Shown here piece after piece: positions 2,623-41,707 of a stretch of DNA of 49,264 nt. Made by a program: the position numbers and the translations under genes. The DNA comes from a candidate division TA06 bacterium (lineage in GTDB: Bacteria; Edwardsbacteria; AC1; EtOH8): contig JACQXR010000089.1 of the NCBI GenBank assembly GCA_016208585.1, positions 1 to 49,264 of the forward strand. The letters are read 5' to 3'. Every line of letters begins with the position of its first letter. Position 1 is the first letter of the stretch. The notes under the pieces are model-generated. The model made no database searches, was not told the origin of the DNA, and worked only from the letters and a program-made list of their open reading frames with translations.

Positions 2623-3131
2623 TTTTCCTTTTTGAGTTTCAGAAGCTTTTCCCACCGGAGATCCGTCTGCTTCTGGGTACAGCCACACGGCCTGGCCCCC
2701 AGAGGTTTGCCGCACTGGGCGCAGAGTCCCCGGCAGTCTTCCCGGCACAGCGGTTTTACCGGCAAAGAAAGCAGCAGGGTTTCCCGCAGCTGGGGCCAGA
2801 GGTCAATCTCCTGGCCCTGGTAAAAAACCATGTCCAGCTCGTCGGGCTTCAGCTCCAGTTCTTTGATCCCTTTAATATCTTCCCGGGTCTGGGGCCGGTA
2901 GAACAGATCTATCTCCGCCTGGCCTTTGGCCTCAAAACTCTTCAGACACAGGCTGCAGTACTGCCGGACCGAATATTCCAGCAAACCGGAAACTCTTAAG
3001 GTAACGCCGCTTTTGGCCACGGTCAGCCGGCCTTTGACCGGCGAAAAATCCAACAGGTCCGAAGCCGGCTCCGTCATATTGACGTCGAACTGGTGCCGCC
3101 CGTCCTCCAACTGGCGAAGTTTGATTTTCAT
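2619..3131 (-). CDS. DUF177 (YceD-like) family protein
   Basis: This 170-residue protein has the DUF177/YceD layout: a beta-rich N-terminal half, then a Cys pair (YCSLCL), then a C-terminal cluster CREDCRGLCAQCGKPL that probably binds zinc. In most bacteria yceD sits just before rpmF (ribosomal protein L32) and is linked to 23S rRNA homeostasis. Here no rpmF follows; the next gene is amrS, joined by a four-base ATGA overlap. About 200 bases without a clear gene separate it from ackA. Confidence 0.75.
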   Translation of the reverse strand: MKIKLRQLEDGRHQFDVNMTEPASDLLDFSPVKGRLTVAKSGVTLRVSGLLEYSVRQYCSLCLKSFEAKGQAEIDLFYRPQTREDIKGIKELELKPDELDMVFYQGQEIDLWPQLRETLLLSLPVKPLCREDCRGLCAQCGKPLGARPCGCTQKQTDLRWEKLLKLKKEK

Positions 3132-3334
3132 AGAACCGCCTTAACTAAACTGCAGAATGCAGAACATCAAATGCAGAATATTGGGTTGGGCATCCTGGCG
3201 TCCTGGCATAAGGCAAGAAAGCCGTCTTTACGGGCACCGGGGGGTTCACGAATCTCATTGCCAAATTATATGATCAGCCTAATCTGCGTAAATCAGCGTC
3301 CTAATTGGTTTTCCCGCCATTGCTCCCGGGGCCA

Positions 3335-4657
3335 TCAGCCTTTCCTCTTGGCCAGCTCCCGCTGGTAGGCTTCGTCCCTCATTTTATTGACGTAGCTTGG
3401 GTCTTCAAAGGCATATTTGAACTTGGTATGAACGTCGTAACGCCCTTCGATGATGGCCACCACGTCCTCGGTAAACACTAATTCTTCGTCGGTGGGAATG
3501 ACGAACAGTTTTACCCGGGAGTCTTTGGCCGAGATCTCGAATTCGTGGTTGCGGCTCTTGGCCTTTTTATTGAGTTCCGGATCCAGCGCCATCCCCAGTT
3601 CCCCCATCCCCGAAACCGCGGCCTCCCGCAGCAGCGGGCCCATCTCACCGGCCCCGCCGGTGAAGACCACGGCGTCAAGATGCCCCAGGGCGGCATAGTA
3701 GGACCCGATGTATTTTTTCAGGCGGTAAGCCTCGATGTCAAAGGCCAGCTTGGCCCTCTCGTCCCCCGCCTTCATGGCGCCTTCTATGTCCCGGCGGTCG
3801 GTGTATTTTCCCGAGATCCCCAGCAGCCCGCTTTTTTTCAGGTACACCGATTCGATCTCCTGGGCGGTCTTGTTCTCCTTGGCGCACAGGAACGGCATCA
3901 GGCCCGGATCCACGTCTCCCGAACGGGTGCCCATCACCAGCCCTTCCATGGTGGTCAATCCCAGGCTGGTGTCGTAGGAACAGCCGTTCTTGATGGCGCT
4001 GAGGCTGACCCCGTTGCCCAGATGGCAGGTAATCAGGTTGACCTTGAAGGGGTCCTTTTTCAGCATCACTGCGGCTCGCCGGGCCACGTAGAGATGGGAG
4101 GTGCCGTGAAACCCGTAGCGGCGCACCCCGTATTTTTCATACCATTCGTAAGGCACGGGATAAATATAAGAGGTCTTGGACATGGTCTGGTGGAAGGCCG
4201 TATCCAGCACCGCCACATGGGGAACGTCGGGCATGATGGCCTGGGCGGCCTTGATGCCCAACACGTTGGGCGGGTTGTGGAGGGGAGCCAGCGAGAACAG
4301 TTCCTCAAAGGCGGCTATCACCTCGTCGTTGATCAGGGTTGATTTGGCGAAATGCTCGCCGCCGTGCACCACCCGGTGGCCCACCCCGCTGATCTGGTTG
4401 AGATCGGAGATCACCGGATGGCTCTCGTGCAACAGGGTATCCAGTATCATCTGGATGGCCACCTGATGATCGGGACAGTTCTTTTCCAGTTTCAGCGGCT
4501 CCCGGCCGGGAACTTCGTGGACGATCACCGATTCGCCCACCGTAACCCTTTCCGCCAGGCCCTTGGCCATGATCTTTTTTTTGTTCCAGTTGTAAAGCTG
4601 GTATTTGACCGAGGAACTTCCGCAGTTGAGCGAAAGAATTATGGTGTCCTTGGCCAC
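3335..4657 (-). CDS. ackA: Acetate kinase
   Basis: The 440-residue protein starts with the acetokinase signature (LSLNCGSSSVKYQLY). It contains the other ASKHA-fold blocks, including GHRVVHGGE, VAVLDTAFHQTM, YGFHGTSH and MGTRSGDVDPGL. It interconverts acetyl phosphate + ADP with acetate + ATP in the cytosol. At 440 residues it is about 40 longer than typical AckA; the extra is a charged C-terminal tail after VFTEDVVAII. A phosphotransacetylase gene is not in the window. With Por and Kor nearby, substrate-level ATP formation from acetyl-CoA is the likely role. The gene lies 176 bases after ndk and may have its own promoter. Confidence 0.95.
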   Translation of the reverse strand: MAKDTIILSLNCGSSSVKYQLYNWNKKKIMAKGLAERVTVGESVIVHEVPGREPLKLEKNCPDHQVAIQMILDTLLHESHPVISDLNQISGVGHRVVHGGEHFAKSTLINDEVIAAFEELFSLAPLHNPPNVLGIKAAQAIMPDVPHVAVLDTAFHQTMSKTSYIYPVPYEWYEKYGVRRYGFHGTSHLYVARRAAVMLKKDPFKVNLITCHLGNGVSLSAIKNGCSYDTSLGLTTMEGLVMGTRSGDVDPGLMPFLCAKENKTAQEIESVYLKKSGLLGISGKYTDRRDIEGAMKAGDERAKLAFDIEAYRLKKYIGSYYAALGHLDAVVFTGGAGEMGPLLREAAVSGMGELGMALDPELNKKAKSRNHEFEISAKDSRVKLFVIPTDEELVFTEDVVAIIEGRYDVHTKFKYAFEDPSYVNKMRDEAYQRELAKRKG

Positions 4658-8482: not shown

Positions 8483-8983
8483 TCAGGAAAACAGTTTGAA
8501 AAACCTTACTTCCTTTTCCCTGCCTTTGGGGATAGCTAGAGTCACCAACGGGGTCTTGTCCTGGGCCTTGGTATTTACGACTCTGATAACTTTTGCCTGG
8601 CCACATTTGATTCCCTCACGATTCAATGCCTGCACCGTATCGCCTTTCTGTGGCAACGGCAGAAATTCGCAGGGCATGGTGATGGCACTCTCGGTATCGG
8701 AGTAGTTTTCATTTATGACGAAGATGGCCAGCCCCGGGCAACGGGAGACGCAAATAGCGCAGCCGTTGCATTTGCTGTGATCCACCCTAGGCAGGGCATT
8801 GATGTCTTCGCCAACTATGATTGCTTTTTGGGGGCAACTGGTCTCGCAGGGGTTGCAGGGTATCTCCTGAAAGCATTCCACAATGACCACCGGGCCCTTC
8901 TTCAGCCGTACCTCTAAAGACCAGACGGTTTGGATGTCTTCGGCATCGGCTAAGCCAGTTGATTTTAACTTATCGGATATCAT
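8483..8983 (-). CDS. 4Fe-4S ferredoxin-like subunit of an electron-transfer flavoprotein complex
   Basis: The protein has 166 residues and two [4Fe-4S] motifs: Cys37/43/46/50 (ECFQEIPCNPCETSCP) and Cys72/75/78/82 (CNGCAICVSRCP). A C-terminal beta domain of about 75 residues follows. This build accompanies HcnA/HcnB-like 2Fe-2S and FAD subunits in amino-acid or opine dehydrogenase complexes. Such partners lie upstream at 9891-10982 and 11018-11329, now separated by an inserted nucleotidyltransferase cassette. The start at 8983 lies inside a direct repeat whose second copy (9785-9923) holds a truncated version of this gene's 5' end. Confidence 0.8.
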   Translation of the reverse strand: MISDKLKSTGLADAEDIQTVWSLEVRLKKGPVVIVECFQEIPCNPCETSCPQKAIIVGEDINALPRVDHSKCNGCAICVSRCPGLAIFVINENYSDTESAITMPCEFLPLPQKGDTVQALNREGIKCGQAKVIRVVNTKAQDKTPLVTLAIPKGREKEVRFFKLFS

Positions 8984-9082
8984 TAACGTTTCAAACCTTT
9001 TGCCGCCGTTGGCGGCACCCCGCCAGCGGCGGTGGCAAACATTTCAAACATTTCAAACAGTTTTGGTTCTGCGCCCCGCCAG
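8949..9082. repeat. Direct repeat, downstream copy, flanking the inserted cassette
   Basis: This block matches about 9785-9923 at most positions. It holds the first codons of the ferredoxin gene, an intergenic GC-rich hairpin (GCCGCCGTTGGCGGC core), and sequence matching the last codons of the upstream flavoprotein gene (CGCAGAACCAAAACTG on the minus strand). This copy has an extra CATTTCAAA unit. The pair encloses the nucleotidyltransferase cassette. Confidence 0.85.
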
Positions 9083-9092
9083 TTTAATGTTG

Positions 9093-9551
9093 TCATTTAT
9101 TTTTTATAAGCGGCATCAGATTTGCAAGATCAACTTTATCTTGTAACCTGTTGGCAGCGCGTTTGGCAAATATCAAATCCTTAAGACCAATAAAATATGT
9201 ATTGGTTTTGCCGAATTTACTTTTCTTCCTGTTGAGCCATGCCTTTTTAAAAGTCAATCCTGCAATGTCAGTAAGAATATCAATCCGGATTGGTTCAACG
9301 CCTATCTGGAAAATTGTGCCTTTTACTGACAAATCTGTTACACTGATTTTATCCAGCGGAGCGCCGAAATCGGACAGACATTTATATACTTTGCCTGCAT
9401 TTTCGGCCGTCGGTTCAATCCATATATCCATGTCTTTGGTGTACCGGGGTTGAGCATAATAGGAAACTGCAAACGCTCCGATCAAAAGATATTTGACCTT
9501 ACCAGTGTTGAAAATGCGTAACAGATCTTCGTAATCTTGGTATATCTCCAT
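9093..9551 (-). CDS. DUF6036/AbiEii-like nucleotidyltransferase (toxin-like)
   Basis: The 152-residue protein has a minimal nucleotidyltransferase fold. LLIGAFAVSYYAQPRYTKDMDIWIE (residues 21-45) is the G(G/A)x(A/S) plus D-x-D metal site, with R-x-D-I-L supplying the third acidic residue later on. Such proteins occur as the catalytic half of type IV-like or AbiE-like toxin-antitoxin and defence pairs. It overlaps the preceding 76-residue gene by about 53 bases, so the two form one unit. Both lie between direct repeats inside the flavoprotein-ferredoxin operon. The substrate (tRNA, partner protein or other) is unknown. Confidence 0.75.
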   Translation of the reverse strand: MEIYQDYEDLLRIFNTGKVKYLLIGAFAVSYYAQPRYTKDMDIWIEPTAENAGKVYKCLSDFGAPLDKISVTDLSVKGTIFQIGVEPIRIDILTDIAGLTFKKAWLNRKKSKFGKTNTYFIGLKDLIFAKRAANRLQDKVDLANLMPLIKNK

Positions 9552-9729
9552 TTCGCCCTTTCAATAAGTAATATATTTTCAACATATCCCACATAGCTTT
9601 CAGCCGTCCGGTTGAACCAACCCTTTGCCAAAAAGATCGATCAAAATTCCGGTTTGCCGGACCCAAACGCTCCAGCTTGGCCATAACCACTGGCTTCCGG
9701 CCCCTGGTATTTACTTTTTCATTACTCAT
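9499..9729 (-). CDS. Small partner of the nucleotidyltransferase (antitoxin-like)
   Basis: The 76-residue protein contains a FDRSFWQRVGSTGRLKAMWDM block and a basic LRRSV tail. From memory this resembles small proteins often found directly before DUF6036 nucleotidyltransferases. Its ATG overlaps the TGA of a 31-codon remnant of the ferredoxin gene (ATGA at 9726-9729), so ribosomes finishing that remnant could restart here. Its 3' end overlaps the nucleotidyltransferase start. An antitoxin or adaptor role is inferred from position, not shown. Confidence 0.6.
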   Translation of the reverse strand: MSNEKVNTRGRKPVVMAKLERLGPANRNFDRSFWQRVGSTGRLKAMWDMLKIYYLLKGRNGDIPRLRRSVTHFQHW

Positions 9730-9821
9730 TGTGCACCCACAGTTATTCCGTTATTGCAAATATCATGGCTAAGCATCCCTTGTGCGGCAAGTCCGGTTGA
9801 TTTTAGTTTATCGGATATCAT
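9726..9821 (-). pseudogene. Truncated 5' copy of the ferredoxin gene, now a short leader ORF
   Basis: Codons 1-12 read MISDKLKSTGLA, the same as the real gene at 8983. After that the frame runs into unrelated sequence and stops after 31 codons. All seven base differences in the 12 shared codons are silent. Its TGA overlaps the ATG of the antitoxin-like gene. It may serve as a translational leader for the inserted cassette. Confidence 0.75.
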
Positions 9822-9923
9822 TAACGTTTCAAACCTTTTGCCGCCGTTGGCGGCACCCCGCCAGCGGCGGTGGCAAACATTTCAAACAGTTTAACCAGTT
9901 TTGGTTCTGCACTCCGCCAGCTT
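9785..9923. repeat. Direct repeat, upstream copy, flanking the inserted cassette
   Basis: This is the counterpart of 8949-9082. It contains the true 3' end of the flavoprotein gene (stop at 9891), the intergenic hairpin and the duplicated ferredoxin start. Each copy is intact on one side and truncated on the other, the geometry left by an insertion that duplicated its target junction. Confidence 0.85.
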
Positions 9924-10982
9924 GCGCTTCCCTTCCCTGGCCTTCTGCCCGAAGGGCCCGGCCCTTAGGCCCGTCAGCCGGCAGGCGGCGACATCTACCC
10001 GTCGCTGTAGTTCTTTGGATCCACCTTTGAGATATTTGACCGCGCCCAGCCCGGCCAGTTCGCCCTCCAGCATGGCGGTGGTGGCTTCCTCGATCCCTGT
10101 CACGTCCCCGGCGGTGAAGATGCCGGGAACTGAGGTCATCATCAGTTCGTCGTGCCAGGCCACCTGGCCGCCCAGTTCCGGCACGTAGTTCATCTGGCAT
10201 CCGGCCTGCCAAAGTATTTCCGTCAGAGGCGTCAGGCCTACCGCCAGACAAATGGTGTCGCAGTCGACTTTCTTTTCGCTGCCAATCACTGGTTGCCACT
10301 CGTCGTCTATTTTGGAGATCACCGCGCCCTTTACCTGATCTTCGCCCGTTGCTTCCAGGATGGTGTGGCGGATCAGGATCGGCACCCCGGCCCGGGCGAT
10401 CTTGGAGGCGTGCACCAGATATCCGCCGATGCAGGGCAGGCCTTCAATAACAGCCTTAACCTGGACCCCGGCCTGCAGCAACTGGTATGATACTATCAGC
10501 CCGATGTTGCCCGAGCCGATCATCAGCACGCTTTTTCCCGGCCTTATGCCGTAAACGTTCATCAGGGTCTGGACCGCCCCGGCCCCGTAAACGCCGGGCA
10601 AGTCATTGCCGGGGAAGGCAAGGAAATTTTCCGAGGCCCCGGTGGCCGCCAGCACCGCTTTGGGCTTCAGGCCGTGAAGTTTGTCGTTCTTGAGCACCGC
10701 CACCGTGCCGTCGGGATAGCAGCCCACCGCCGAGGAGTTGGTCCAGATCTCGATACCCCTCTTTTCCATTTCGCCGGCCAGTTCGATTCCGATGTCAAGG
10801 CCCCGGGTGCCGGCTCTTTCCGCCTTGCTGCCGAAGAACATGTGAGTCTGCTTGATCAGTTGTCCGCCTAACTTTTGGTTTTCATCTATTAACAATGGTT
10901 TTATTCCGAAGTCCGAAGCCGCCAGCGCCGCCATCAGGCCCGCCGGCCCCCCGCCGATTATCAGGAAATCCGGATTGTTCAT
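9891..10982 (-). CDS. FAD/NAD(P)-dependent oxidoreductase, HcnB-like
   Basis: The 363-residue protein has two Rossmann motifs, GGGPAG at residues 10-15 (FAD) and GSGNIG at 156-161 (NAD(P)). It also has ATGASENFLAFPG and the C-terminal TAGDVTGIEEA block that contacts FAD. This is the pyridine-nucleotide:disulfide reductase fold without the redox CxxC, as in HcnB, the opine oxidase subunits and proline dehydrogenase alpha-type subunits. It lies 35 bases after the 2Fe-2S gene. Its stop falls in the repeat upstream of the cassette. The catalytic amine-oxidising subunit usually present is not in the window. Confidence 0.85.
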   Translation of the reverse strand: MNNPDFLIIGGGPAGLMAALAASDFGIKPLLIDENQKLGGQLIKQTHMFFGSKAERAGTRGLDIGIELAGEMEKRGIEIWTNSSAVGCYPDGTVAVLKNDKLHGLKPKAVLAATGASENFLAFPGNDLPGVYGAGAVQTLMNVYGIRPGKSVLMIGSGNIGLIVSYQLLQAGVQVKAVIEGLPCIGGYLVHASKIARAGVPILIRHTILEATGEDQVKGAVISKIDDEWQPVIGSEKKVDCDTICLAVGLTPLTEILWQAGCQMNYVPELGGQVAWHDELMMTSVPGIFTAGDVTGIEEATTAMLEGELAGLGAVKYLKGGSKELQRRVDVAACRLTGLRAGPFGQKAREGKRKLAECRTKTG

Positions 10983-24234: not shown

Positions 24235-25464
24235 TCATTTCGCCGGACGGAAACCGAAGCCAAGGCGGTTGGAAATCAGCTCCTTGGCGTCGTACCAGAA
24301 ACGCATGGCTGAACGGCAATAATACCCGTCCTCGCTCCAGGACCCTCCCCGCATCACCCGGAAAGACCCGGAGGCCGGCCCGGTCGGGTTATTGGGAGCC
24401 GATTTGTCGTAATAATTCTTATCGTACCAGTCGCTGCACCATTCCCAGGCGTTCCCCGCCATATCGTAACAGCCATACGGAGAGACACCTTGGGCAAAGC
24501 TGCCCACCGGAGCCGTCCACTTGTAACCATCGCTTTTTTCCTTGCTGTTGCAGCGCTCGGGATACCAGCGGCTGCCCCAGGGATATTCCCGTCCGTCGCG
24601 CCCCCGGGCGGCCTTTTCCCACTGAGCCTCGGTCGGCAGCTTGAGGCCGGCCCAATCGCAGTAGCTTTTAGCCTCCTCCCATTCGACATTGATGACCGGC
24701 AGGCTGTCGTTCTCTAGACCGGAAAACTGCTTGGGCATCTTTTTGCCGGTGGCGTCCCAGTATTTCTTGAATTGCCCGATAGTAATCTCGTACTTGCCGA
24801 TGTAATAATGATCAAGATTGATGGTGTGGACCGGCGTCTCGTCCGGTTCCCCCTCGTTGCTGCCCATGCTGAACGGGCCGGCCGGTATCTCGACCATCAC
24901 CGACCCGTCCTTCTGGTTGCGGTATTCGTTGAAACCCTGGGGATTAACCCCCAGAAAGACCAAGCCTTCCCCGGATTCGCCAGCCGGCTGGCCGGACTGG
25001 TACGGAATGCCCGAGAAATAACAGGCCGCCTCCCGCATGGCCTCCAGCAGGATGCTAACGTCTCCCGCGTAGGATTTGGAAAAGGCCTTGTCGATCGCCC
25101 CGGTTTTTACGTCTATCACCCTCAGCTGCAGGGAATAGACCGCCCCCAGCTTGCCGATGGTCCCGCCCACCATCTTCTGCACCCCCAGCAGCTGCCCGGC
25201 CTCCACCAGGCAGGCCCCCTGGTCGCAGGCCCCGCTCTGCTGAAAGCCCTGCTCCTTGAGAATCTCATCCCGCTTGCTGCGGTCCACCACCTGGTAGACG
25301 TTGGCAGTCACCAGATCGTTCACCAGCTTGTCGGAAAACATCACCGCTTCGCTTGCCGACAGGCCGGCGGTAGTGTTAAGATCCATGATCGAAATGGTGG
25401 TTTTTCCTGCCAGCGCCGCCGGCAGGGTCATGAAAAGAAGAATCCTTGTAAGTCTGCTGAGCAT
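24235..25464 (-). CDS. Secreted CsgG-like N-terminal domain fused to a formylglycine-generating-enzyme-type (SUMF1) domain
   Basis: The 409-residue protein has a signal peptide (residues 1-19). A CsgG-like domain follows to about 150 (LVNDLVTANVYQVVDRSKRD, GGTIGKLGAVYSLQLRVIDV). The FGE/SUMF1 fold runs from about 190 to 409, with IPAGPFSMGSNEGEPDETP, LPTEAQWEKAARG, YGCYDMAGNAWEWCSDWY, MRGGSW and GFGFRPAK. The two active-site cysteines of true FGE are not both evident, so catalysis is doubtful and a ligand-binding role is possible. The first 150 residues are nearly the same as in the next gene upstream. Confidence 0.85.
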   Translation of the reverse strand: MLSRLTRILLFMTLPAALAGKTTISIMDLNTTAGLSASEAVMFSDKLVNDLVTANVYQVVDRSKRDEILKEQGFQQSGACDQGACLVEAGQLLGVQKMVGGTIGKLGAVYSLQLRVIDVKTGAIDKAFSKSYAGDVSILLEAMREAACYFSGIPYQSGQPAGESGEGLVFLGVNPQGFNEYRNQKDGSVMVEIPAGPFSMGSNEGEPDETPVHTINLDHYYIGKYEITIGQFKKYWDATGKKMPKQFSGLENDSLPVINVEWEEAKSYCDWAGLKLPTEAQWEKAARGRDGREYPWGSRWYPERCNSKEKSDGYKWTAPVGSFAQGVSPYGCYDMAGNAWEWCSDWYDKNYYDKSAPNNPTGPASGSFRVMRGGSWSEDGYYCRSAMRFWYDAKELISNRLGFGFRPAK

Positions 25465-25492: not shown

Positions 25493-26773
25493 TCAGAATT
25501 GGAAGCCCAAATGGGCGATCCAGTATGACCCCCCGTCCCATGACAGGATACCCGTTTCCCTTTTGGAGGAGGAACTGGTGGGGTCGTCGTAATACTTCAT
25601 CTCGCCTCCCCACCCCCACTCTTTGACGGTATTGTTCCATTCAAAGCCCATGAAAAAGTGCTTGCGGTAGAGCCTGACCCCGAAGGGAAATCCCAGGTTG
25701 ATCTTGGATACGGTGGAGAACCCCCTGTCGTCCAGTTCCTTTCCGCTGAGATTGACATCATCGAACTGCCCGCCGACACCTATGTAGGGCTCGATGGCAT
25801 CGGCCGGAGAAATCATCATCCGGTATCCTAATTTAATGTTATCGGAAAGGACAAACCTCCAGATGGTAAAAGCCTCCTCCGGCAGATAGCGGGATGTAGA
25901 AGTCACCGTGTTCGAGACCAGGTTGGTGTCGGTAAAAGCTACGCTGGATGAAGCCGATTTAAAGCTGACGATGGAAAGCCCCAGGTCCCCGGGGCAGATG
26001 CTGAAGGAATTTCCCTTGCGGCTCAAATAAAACTTGACAACCGATCCCTCCAATCCAAAACGCCGGCCCTTGTTCCATTCAATGCCTTCATAGACCCGTC
26101 CGAAACTGTCCTTCTCCGACCAGTAGAAGTTCTCTGCTTTCATCTTTTCGGTTCCGAAACAGAATGACAAAGAGAACCATTTTGTTTTCTTGGTGTCAAT
26201 GCCCCCTTTCTTCTTGGCTCCGGAAGGTTTGGCCAGGGAAGTATCGGTTTGGGGTTGGGGCGGGGCCAGGACGGCCGCCGCCGGGGCCGGTTGTGCCTTC
26301 ACGCCGGAAAAATAGCTGGCCGCCTCTCTCATGCCCTCCAGTAGCAGGCTGATGTCGCCGCTATACGACTTGGAGAACGCCCGATCAATTCCTCCGGTCT
26401 TGACGTCGATCACCCGCAGCTGCAGGTAATAAGCCGCCCCCAGCTTGCCGATGGTGCCACCCACCATCTTCTGTACACCCAACAGTTGCCCAGCCTCCAC
26501 CAGACATGCCCCCTGGTCACAGGCCCCGCTCTGTTGGAAGCCCTGCTCCTTGAGAATCTCATCCCGCTTGCTGCGGTCCACCACCTGGTAGACGTTGGCA
26601 ATCACCAAATCGTTTATCAGCTTGTCGGTCAGCATGGATACTTCGCTTTTCGACAGACCGGATGTCACATTCAGGTCCATTACCGAGACCTGCAGTTTTT
26701 GGGCCTGGGCTGATGGCAAGGCTGCTAATGCCAACAAAAATGCCATTGTAATAACATTCATTATTTGTTTCAT
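25493..26773 (-). CDS. Secreted CsgG-like N-terminal domain fused to a predicted outer-membrane beta-barrel
   Basis: From the ATG at 26773 (AGGGGG seven bases upstream) the protein has 426 residues. It has a signal peptide ending near PSAQAQK, a CsgG-like domain (about 20-160) almost identical to that of the neighbouring gene, and a proline/alanine-rich linker. The C-terminal 220 residues alternate polar and aromatic residues and end in AHLGFQF, the terminal aromatic pattern of outer-membrane barrels. An in-frame GTG at 26779 is the alternative start. It lies 28 bases before the FGE-domain gene, so the two are probably co-transcribed. Confidence 0.75.
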   Translation of the reverse strand: MKQIMNVITMAFLLALAALPSAQAQKLQVSVMDLNVTSGLSKSEVSMLTDKLINDLVIANVYQVVDRSKRDEILKEQGFQQSGACDQGACLVEAGQLLGVQKMVGGTIGKLGAAYYLQLRVIDVKTGGIDRAFSKSYSGDISLLLEGMREAASYFSGVKAQPAPAAAVLAPPQPQTDTSLAKPSGAKKKGGIDTKKTKWFSLSFCFGTEKMKAENFYWSEKDSFGRVYEGIEWNKGRRFGLEGSVVKFYLSRKGNSFSICPGDLGLSIVSFKSASSSVAFTDTNLVSNTVTSTSRYLPEEAFTIWRFVLSDNIKLGYRMMISPADAIEPYIGVGGQFDDVNLSGKELDDRGFSTVSKINLGFPFGVRLYRKHFFMGFEWNNTVKEWGWGGEMKYYDDPTSSSSKRETGILSWDGGSYWIAHLGFQF

Positions 26774-39900: not shown

Positions 39901-40026
39901 CTACTCGCGAACGCCTAAGTATTGAACCGAATCGGCCTTGACCTTGCCGGCCTTCAGGTCCATGAACAGGCCTTCGATCTGCTCCAGGTCGATCTCCCGC
40001 CCGCCCCAGCCATAGCTGAAGGTGAT
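39901..40026 (-). pseudogene. Diverged copy of the porA 3' end
   Basis: Read on the minus strand, GGREIDLEQIEGLF and KVKADSVQYLGVRE match the true PorA tail (GGREIDMEQIEGLF, KVKADSVNYLGVRE). The DNA differs at about a quarter of positions and an in-frame stop lies just upstream (40036-40038). So this is a fragment of a different porA allele, not a recent copy. It separates the protease-like gene from the nuclease-like pair. Confidence 0.85.
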
Positions 40027-40066: not shown

Positions 40067-40423
40067 TCACATAAGCACCATCGGCAGCGGTTTCAGCTTG
40101 CGTCCGATGGGATCTAACACCATGCCCAGGGCTTCTAAAGTGGTGGCTCCGATTAGATATATCCTCTCATCGCCGAAGATGACCGGGGCCGCCCGCACCT
40201 TGTCATGATATTCGAAGTAGGCGTTGCCTACAGGCTTTATTATTATCTCGCCGTTGGCTAAAATAAATTCCTGCTGTGATGTCGGTTTGATGCCCAGAGA
40301 TTGCAATACCTTTTGCGGTAAAACCGAATAAATCGCGCCCGAATCCACCAGGAACTCGCACTCCTTTTTTCGCCGGGGGTGTTCTGGATTTATAACCATG
40401 ACCTTCAAATACGTTATCCCCAT
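40067..40423 (-). CDS. Clan AA retropepsin-like aspartic protease
   Basis: The 118-residue protein has FLVDSGAIYSVLP with the catalytic D-S-G at residues 27-29. Family-typical blocks such as LANGEIIIKPVGNAYFEY and IGATTLEALGMVLDP follow. Single-domain proteins of this clan (gag-asp_proteas style) act as dimers; many are found in bacteria near toxin-antitoxin or mobile genes. It lies about 108 bases after the porA stop and before the second porA 3' end. Its substrate is unknown. Confidence 0.8.
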   Translation of the reverse strand: MGITYLKVMVINPEHPRRKKECEFLVDSGAIYSVLPQKVLQSLGIKPTSQQEFILANGEIIIKPVGNAYFEYHDKVRAAPVIFGDERIYLIGATTLEALGMVLDPIGRKLKPLPMVLM

Positions 40424-40531: not shown

Positions 40532-41707
40532 CTATTCCCTGACCCCCAGATAGTTCACCGAGTCGGCCTTGACCTTTCCGGACTTGAGGTCCAGGAACAA
40601 ACCTTCGATCTGCTCCATGTCTATCTCCCGCCCGCCCAGGCCGTAGACCACGCCGGCTATCTGGGGCTTTTTGGCCGAGCCGTACAGGGCCGAGCGGATC
40701 TCGGTAAACACCGGGCCACCGAAACCGCCCACCGAGTCGGAGCGGTCCAGCACCGCCACCGTCTGGATGTTTTCCAGGGCCTTGACGATCTCTTCGGTCG
40801 GGAATGGCCGGAAGACGCGGACCTTGAGCAGTCCGGCCTTGACCCCCTGTTTCCGCAGTTGGTCTATTACCACCTTGGCGGTGCCACAGGTGGAGCCCAA
40901 AGCCACGATGGCCACCTCGGCGTCATCCAATTGATATTTCTCGATCAGGCCGTAGTTGGCGTCGAACTTCTTCCCGAATTCCTGGCCTACTTCTTTAATG
41001 ACCTTCAGGGCGTTGTTCTGGGCGTCCACCATGGCCCGGCGGTGCTCGAAGTAATAATCGGTCAGGTTGATGGCCCCCATGGTGAACGGCTGCTTGACGT
41101 CCAAAAGGTGCATCATGGGATCGTATTTGCCGATGAAGCCCTGCACCTCATTGTCCGGCAGGGTGTCTATCCGCTCCATGCCGTGGGAGATGATGAAGCC
41201 GTCGGTAGTGACCATCACCGGCAAGCGGACGTCCTGGTGCTCGGCGATCCGCACCGCCTGGATCATGCTGTCGTAGGCCTCCTGGGCGTTCTCGGAGAAG
41301 ATGTGTATCCAGCCGGCGTCGCGGCAGCCCATGGTGTCGGAGTGGTCGCAGTGGATGTTGATGGGGGCCGCCAGCGCCCGGTTGACGTCGGCCATCACGA
41401 TGGGCAGGCGCAGTCCGGCCGCGATGTAAATCATCTCGTACATCAAAGCCAGGCCCTGGGAGCTGGTGCCGGTCATGGTGCGGGCTCCGGCCGCGGCCGA
41501 TCCGATGCAGGCCGACATGGCCGAATGCTCGGACTCCACCGCCACGAATTCGGTCTTGACATCGCCATCGGCCACATACTGGGAAAATATCTGAACGATC
41601 TCGGTGGCCGGGGTAATGGGATAGGCGGCCACCACGTCGGGATTGATCTGCTTCATGGCATAGGCCATGGCCTCGTTGCCGGTCTTGGCCAGTATTGTCT
41701 TCTGCAT
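40532..41707 (-). CDS. porA: Pyruvate:ferredoxin oxidoreductase, alpha subunit
   Basis: From the ATG at 41707 (GAGGAGG upstream) the protein has 391 residues. It begins with KTGNEAMAYAMKQINPDVVAAYPITPATEI and has GTSSQGLALMYEMIYIAAGLRLP and RDAGWIHIFSENAQEAYD, all alpha-subunit blocks. An in-frame start at 41725 would overlap porD and is less likely. It follows porD by one base. The C-terminal sequence recurs as a diverged fragment at 39901-40026. Confidence 0.94.
   Translation of the reverse strand: MQKTILAKTGNEAMAYAMKQINPDVVAAYPITPATEIVQIFSQYVADGDVKTEFVAVESEHSAMSACIGSAAAGARTMTGTSSQGLALMYEMIYIAAGLRLPIVMADVNRALAAPINIHCDHSDTMGCRDAGWIHIFSENAQEAYDSMIQAVRIAEHQDVRLPVMVTTDGFIISHGMERIDTLPDNEVQGFIGKYDPMMHLLDVKQPFTMGAINLTDYYFEHRRAMVDAQNNALKVIKEVGQEFGKKFDANYGLIEKYQLDDAEVAIVALGSTCGTAKVVIDQLRKQGVKAGLLKVRVFRPFPTEEIVKALENIQTVAVLDRSDSVGGFGGPVFTEIRSALYGSAKKPQIAGVVYGLGGREIDMEQIEGLFLDLKSGKVKADSVNYLGVRE

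Follow-up and report, generated by a model that had tools for sequence, protein, structure and literature searches.

How toxin-antitoxin and defence genes spread without a transposase, an integrase or a plasmid is a long-standing question. In 2000, Nobusato et al. reportedly described the insertion of restriction-modification genes with long target duplication in Helicobacter pylori. Insertions of this kind, known mainly from H. pylori and again of restriction-modification genes, are dealt with in passages of PMC3874152, PMC1643837 and PMC4978471. The locus reported here resembles them in that a unit that is not a transposon, with putatively addictive cargo and no recombinase, lies between direct copies of its target that vary in length, around 100 bp. 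It differs in its cargo, which is of toxin-antitoxin type (nucleotidyltransferase, PIN, MNT-HEPN, HicBA-like and Fic) instead of restriction-modification, and in its setting, since the host belongs to a candidate phylum and many loci of one genome are involved, including sites inside core operons such as S10. We file the feature as a variant of long-target-duplication insertion and not as a restriction-modification case. A second related concept is the minimal mobile element, in which exchangeable cassettes lie between conserved genes (Saunders and Snyder 2002; PMC3082526). Here too, two conserved genes flank a slot with varying cassettes, and exchange goes by homologous recombination in the flanks, but it takes place across genera and the slot holds repeated host sequence, which is outside the published requirement. 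Transposed genes of Arabidopsis with flanking host repeats, which are read mainly as products of circle excision and reintegration (PMC2869330), are also ordinary genes that have moved and now lie between direct repeats of host target sequence, although in a eukaryote and with movement within one genome. In the open-access literature we found no report of toxin-antitoxin cassettes that carry the scar of a long target duplication genome-wide.

Locus and comparison set

The window, a stretch of 49,264 nucleotides, is contig C89 of the 2.5-Mb metagenome-assembled genome G000 (Candidatus Edwardsbacteria). The host operon is on the minus strand and reads opposite to the window coordinates (Table 1); upstream and downstream are used below in the sense of the operon. 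The genomes compared at the junction are all metagenome-assembled and come from a family sample of about ten, in which 9 of 10 genomes have the flavoprotein; the UBA2224 locus was added from a second collection.

Table 1. Features of the host operon and the inserted cassette in window coordinates, listed in the direction of transcription.
Feature	Position	Strand	Remarks
2Fe-2S protein	11329-11018	-	first gene noted in the operon
FAD/NAD flavoprotein (Pyr_redox_2)	9891-10982	-	host gene upstream of the cassette, intact; Pfam, orthologs in 9/10 family genomes
Repeat copy 1	9785-9923	-	real flavoprotein 3' end, intergenic hairpin and truncated ferredoxin 5' end
GC-rich hairpin element in copy 1	9819-9889	-	repeat search and folding
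Truncated ferredoxin frame, 31 codons	9726-9821	-	read from the sequence
Small partner, 76 aa, putative antitoxin	9499-9729	-	overlaps the nucleotidyltransferase by 53 nt
DUF2204-type nucleotidyltransferase, 152 aa, putative toxin	9093-9551	-	Pfam, alignment, predicted fold
Repeat copy 2	8947-9085	-	flavoprotein-tail remnant, hairpin element and real ferredoxin 5' end
Hairpin element in copy 2	8981-9050	-	identical to the copy-1 element
4Fe-4S ferredoxin	8483-8983	-	host gene downstream of the cassette, intact; Pfam and comparison with relatives
Second ferredoxin	8240-7977	-	operon, after the 4Fe-4S ferredoxin
2-oxoacid:ferredoxin oxidoreductase subunits	after the second ferredoxin	-	operon

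The duplicated junction

The initial annotation described the cassette as lying between direct repeats of about 135 bp made of the flavoprotein end and the ferredoxin start. On measurement these repeats are 139 bp long, with 91% ungapped identity and a start-to-start distance of 838 bp. It was also right that the upstream copy (9923-9785) keeps the flavoprotein end and truncates the ferredoxin while the downstream copy (9085-8947) does the reverse, and that the coding content of the host is retained, flavoprotein and ferredoxin both being intact. The cassette genes read in the same direction as the host operon. The complete junction sequence has no second locus anywhere in the 2.5-Mb genome, and at the empty site of the related genome G002 it is single-copy.

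We considered whether the repeat is a mere dispersed element and rejected this, since only its inner part of about 70 bp, a GC-rich hairpin, is dispersed across the genome. The hairpin has the motif GTTTGAAA...CCGCC...GGCGG...TTTGAAA, folds with -33.9 kcal/mol (z -4.1) and forms part of the duplicated target. It is typical of the window's genus, with 11 matches in G000, 4 in G001 and 7 in G002; G005, a genome of another genus, has one copy of 94% at its flavoprotein-ferredoxin locus and elsewhere one weak partial match. The hairpin core is absent from the empty sites of relatives. An Rfam search of the junction gave no match, and the predictions of promoter and terminator scans were not above chance. 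The stop codon of the truncated ferredoxin frame and the start codon of the partner overlap (ATGA), an arrangement not conserved in G005; through this overlap the start signal of the host gene could drive expression of the cassette.

The nucleotidyltransferase and its partner

The assignment of the larger cassette gene to a DUF6036-like family did not hold in the Pfam search, in which DUF6036 scored 16.5 bits vs a cut-off of 23.6 and DUF2204 passed its own (23.3 vs 20.3 bits). Literature on the function of either family yielded nothing useful. Across 15 aligned nucleotidyltransferase sequences D40, D42 and D91, together with G25, are invariant. The predicted model (pLDDT 92) has the MenT1 toxin and the MenAT1 complex as its nearest solved folds (TM 0.71), and by sequence MenT1 is the only solved relative, with a weak match. 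The small partner gene proposed beside it is present, and carries the motif FW..G...R..W......PRL.RSV. Several relatives, some of them of other phyla, likewise have a small ORF that overlaps the start of the nucleotidyltransferase by about 46-58 nt and shows a conserved FW/YW...R...RLxR pattern. The partner has no family in Pfam, NCBIfam or PADLOC and nothing significant in PHROGs, and no antitoxin of MenA/AbiEi type was recognisable in it with these four resources. The likeness to toxin-antitoxin systems of MenAT/AbiE type thus lies in a nucleotidyltransferase fold with its catalytic acids and in the two-gene operon; the differences are an identity of about 20% in the structural alignment, a partner of unannotated family and a toxin role that is putative. 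On sequence and model, the nucleotidyltransferase and its overlapping partner are likely a toxin-antitoxin-like pair, which may act as toxin and antitoxin and be retained by addiction.

The junction in related genomes

Comparison with relatives, as proposed in the initial annotation, revealed an empty flavoprotein-ferredoxin junction in G002, G006 and G009, where the two genes are 33, 10 and 41 bp apart. The seven other genomes examined, G000 included, have inserts at the junction, and five of these inserts are nucleotidyltransferase cassettes, spread over at least three lineages. The further cassettes that the annotation had suggested looking for are those of G005, G008, G003 and UBA2224, all with flavoprotein-tail copies, so that such a copy follows every nucleotidyltransferase cassette at this junction (5/5). 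The copy is 139 bp long in G000, 25 bp in G008, 61 bp in G003 and about 70 bp, in two pieces, in UBA2224; in G005 it is the version shared with G000, decayed. The nucleotidyltransferases of G005 and G008 are related to that of the window (93% and 78% aa identity), and those of G003 and UBA2224 are of a different type (36%). G007 has a 300-aa ORF in the slot, and for this insert, as for the second insert of G003, no duplication was detectable. Taken over all genomes the slot contains two types of nucleotidyltransferase, LVIVD-type proteins, an AAA-type gene, a 300-aa ORF, or nothing. The junction is therefore an insertion hotspot. Between G005 and G008, which belong to the same genus, the cassette has a dS of 1.9 vs 0.48 for the flavoprotein, and hence their cassettes are separate acquisitions. 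In G003 (L133) and UBA2224 (L055) the nucleotidyltransferases of the first cassettes are 99.8% identical in nucleotides and the second inserts, placed after the tail copy, differ completely (an AAA-type gene, by eye, in G003 and another gene in UBA2224). This switch at the tail copy suggests that the copy may serve as a recombination point.

In G005, an independent assembly of 9 contigs with the locus on a contig of 317 kb, this junction is likewise occupied by the cassette known from G000 and bordered by a repeat copy on either side, of which the downstream copy is partly decayed. G000 and G005 are of different genera, and dS between them is 1.05 for the flavoprotein and 1.12 for the ferredoxin vs 0.29 for the nucleotidyltransferase. 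At diagnostic sites G005 has the type of its own genus in 54 of 57 cases upstream and in 79 of 93 in the flavoprotein; the type changes close to the end of the flavoprotein, all of the first ten ferredoxin sites match the window's genus, and beyond them the types are mixed. These mosaic sites, along with a hairpin typical of the window's genus, show that a block running from the flavoprotein end over the cassette to the ferredoxin start was imported into G005. The block moved there from the window's genus by homologous recombination, a mode of incorporation established here for G005 alone. The route of entry, put by the initial annotation as recombination-based or unknown, was aptly described on both counts: the import into G005 went by recombination, and for the first duplication event only candidate routes can be named.

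Other loci with the same arrangement

A direct-repeat scan was run over 1.33 Mb of G000, and dispersed repeats and paralogs were removed. At the scan thresholds the reversed-sequence control gave 1 match vs 44 real nearby pairs. The locus-specific repeat pairs that remained, of 42-182 bp, lie mostly around short inserts, and these are mostly of toxin type. PIN genes with a partner are flanked by repeats of 172 bp and 145 bp, MNT-HEPN inserts by repeats of 117, 92 and 43 bp, a Fic insert by 110 bp and an NYN insert by 182 bp; a DUF1016/YhcG nuclease with a gene of no stated family has its repeat in three copies, and by eye a DinD-like protein (69 bp) and another PIN-like gene (42 bp) can be added. 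PIN/HepT genes fall inside repeat intervals in 5 of 8 cases vs 12 of 742 for other ORFs (Fisher p=1.7e-7, for Pfam-defined classes in one genome). No flanking repeat was seen at four more HepT genes, of which three lie close to contig ends and one lies outside the sample. In total we arrive at about ten duplicated-target cassettes in G000, the flavoprotein junction among them. Wherever strands were read, the inserted genes are co-oriented with the host gene. No terminal inverted repeats, shared target or end motif, or constant core were found in 11 loci, and the remark that no transposase or integrase is visible agrees with the cassette ORFs, among which there is no recombinase.

Several of these sites have empty counterparts. 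The genes ips and tmk are contiguous in G001 (gap of a few bp); in G000 a PIN cassette stands between them and the duplication takes in 145 bp of the ips tail, and in G005 the place is taken by a different insert of 1.3 kb. Similarly, mnmA and asmA are contiguous in G002 (58-bp gap), enclose the Fic gene with 110 bp duplicated in G000 and enclose a different ORF of 438 aa in G001. In the S10 ribosomal operon of G001 and G002, rplW and rplB are contiguous with a gap of about 68 bp; in G000 (L169, contig C15, 5490-9705) a stack of 3.8 kb stands between them. It consists of an HNH nuclease and a DNA methyltransferase, then a DUF4258/YgiT-like pair (all by eye), and then a PIN pair flanked by the 172-bp copies, which include the first 27 codons of rplB. 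The start of glyA is duplicated in G000 (L233, 1885-2713) around an MNT-HEPN pair, and the glyA start of G005 (L260, 763-1592) has two copies of its own around a HicBA-like pair (by eye). In the 381 kb sampled of G005 there are two more cases: a repeat of 154 bp accompanies a nucleotidyltransferase pair at an lpxA-like start, and one of 64 bp accompanies an FMN reductase that follows recN; the latter cargo means that the inserts are not exclusively toxin-like.

Origin of the duplication

We consider that a small toxin-antitoxin-like cassette was probably inserted at the flavoprotein-ferredoxin junction with a long target duplication. What the genomes display directly are empty sites, a duplication that varies from 42 to 182 bp, co-orientation, recurrence both at this site and genome-wide, and preserved host genes. 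In such an insertion the 139-bp target stretch would be copied to both sides, whereby the flavoprotein would keep its end and the ferredoxin its start. The first insertion may have been illegitimate: a break whose staggered nicks lay some 100 bp from each other could have been repaired by fill-in; alternatively, replication template switching might have led to rejoining upstream of the break point. The survivors would be only those events whose duplication rebuilds both host genes, because most other insertions in a compact operon would break a gene, and toxin-antitoxin addiction would then retain the inserted cassettes.

The candidate mechanisms predict different relations between the two repeat copies. 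On detailed alignment the copies of the window share an identical core of 81 bp, with the differences mostly at the ends (p=0.00015), which fits either gene conversion or the crossover expected if a circle had integrated. According to the latter route a donor cassette with junction repeats would excise as a circle and enter by a single crossover at the junction of the recipient, leaving repeats that are part donor and part recipient. The core with its end differences is the tract that such a crossover or conversion would produce, the same junction is re-used in several genera, and a route of this kind has been suggested for plant genes that lie between host repeats (PMC2869330). It requires, however, a donor that is already duplicated and so accounts for spread and not for origin. 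Moreover, the mnmA-tail copies of G000 share bases absent from G001 and G002, which places their duplication within the G000 lineage and favours an origin in situ; judged by copy-to-ortholog distances such an origin is clear at mnmA and not at most other loci. For G005, a double crossover over the whole block fits better. We regard the circle as an unlikely explanation of the window's locus and keep it for re-establishing the structure in new hosts.

It is also conceivable that the junction was duplicated in tandem, before or after, and that the cassette entered between the two copies in an event of its own. G001 offers a parallel (L132, 3804-8508), where two paralogous proteins of about 750 aa, LVIVD-type by eye, form a tandem duplication; at its seam, residues 1-36 of the ferredoxin are fused to the tail of the flavoprotein, and the unit present twice runs from flavoprotein residue ~340 to ferredoxin ~36 with the LVIVD-type gene. 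Yet no examined genome has two junction copies minus a cassette, and many inserts sit exactly between their copies, a coincidence that two independent events would not repeat, which makes this sequence of events decidedly improbable. Still less can be said for site-specific recombination, in which the 3' end of the flavoprotein would be the attachment site of a trans-acting integrase, as tRNA 3' ends are for genomic islands. The flavoprotein tail does recur downstream of several different cassettes at the junction, but its copies vary in length (25, 61 and 139 bp) with no constant core, other cassettes use unrelated targets at both gene starts and gene ends with no end motif, and the integrase is absent from the cassette; we give this reading very little weight. 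An assembly or binning artefact, for which it might be said that every compared genome is metagenome-assembled, is scarcely credible, since assemblies made independently, from different genera and divergent in sequence, show the same structure, and the copies, at 91% identity, differ too much to come from a read path that was collapsed or doubled.

Insertion with long target duplication therefore remains our preferred reading for the window, and it can be extended, more tentatively, to the lineage. Edwardsbacteria might have a general process that mobilises small toxin-antitoxin and defence cassettes, needs no recombinase borne by the cassette, copies 40-180 bp of target and enters core operons, including S10, without damage to them, while homologous recombination would then shuttle the cassettes between genera at the hotspots that result; we would not put this wider proposal above a plausible conjecture. 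In one genome the same scar marks about ten cassettes from several toxin families that are unrelated to each other, with empty sites in relatives and one inter-genus transfer, and the recurrence of the scar at unrelated toxin-type genes points to a general route of settling without a transposase of their own. With this many scarred cassettes and empty sites the question becomes countable, in terms of scar length, target position, cargo type and age.

Additional repeats

A DUF2204-like nucleotidyltransferase gene of G004 (L037) is accompanied by an exact 38-bp repeat (1145-1182 / 2113-2150) that has only these two copies in the genome and resembles a duplicated promoter (TTGACA...TATCAT). No ortholog of the adjacent gene exists in the family, hence there is no empty-site comparison and L037 is counted as a good candidate. 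Three nucleotidyltransferase cassettes of unrelated phyla, L034 and L042 (both G027) and L044 (G038), were left out of the count, as the repeats that flank them look like general dispersed repeats of their genomes. Transposase genes of IS200-like type (Y1_Tnp) at L163 (contig C9 of G000, 2944-3604) and L192 (3-763) are flanked by direct repeats of 105 bp (84%) and 39 bp; these loci possibly reflect a related process, or else a real transposon with its own repeats. The window itself holds two further repeats. One is a direct repeat of 359 bp (25009-25367 / 26303-26661, 83%), of which the sampled genome has about 8 partial copies. The other is a locus-specific pair of 90 bp (39926-40015 / 40557-40646, 87%, spacing 541 bp), between whose copies lies an aspartyl-protease-like gene on the minus strand (40067-40423).
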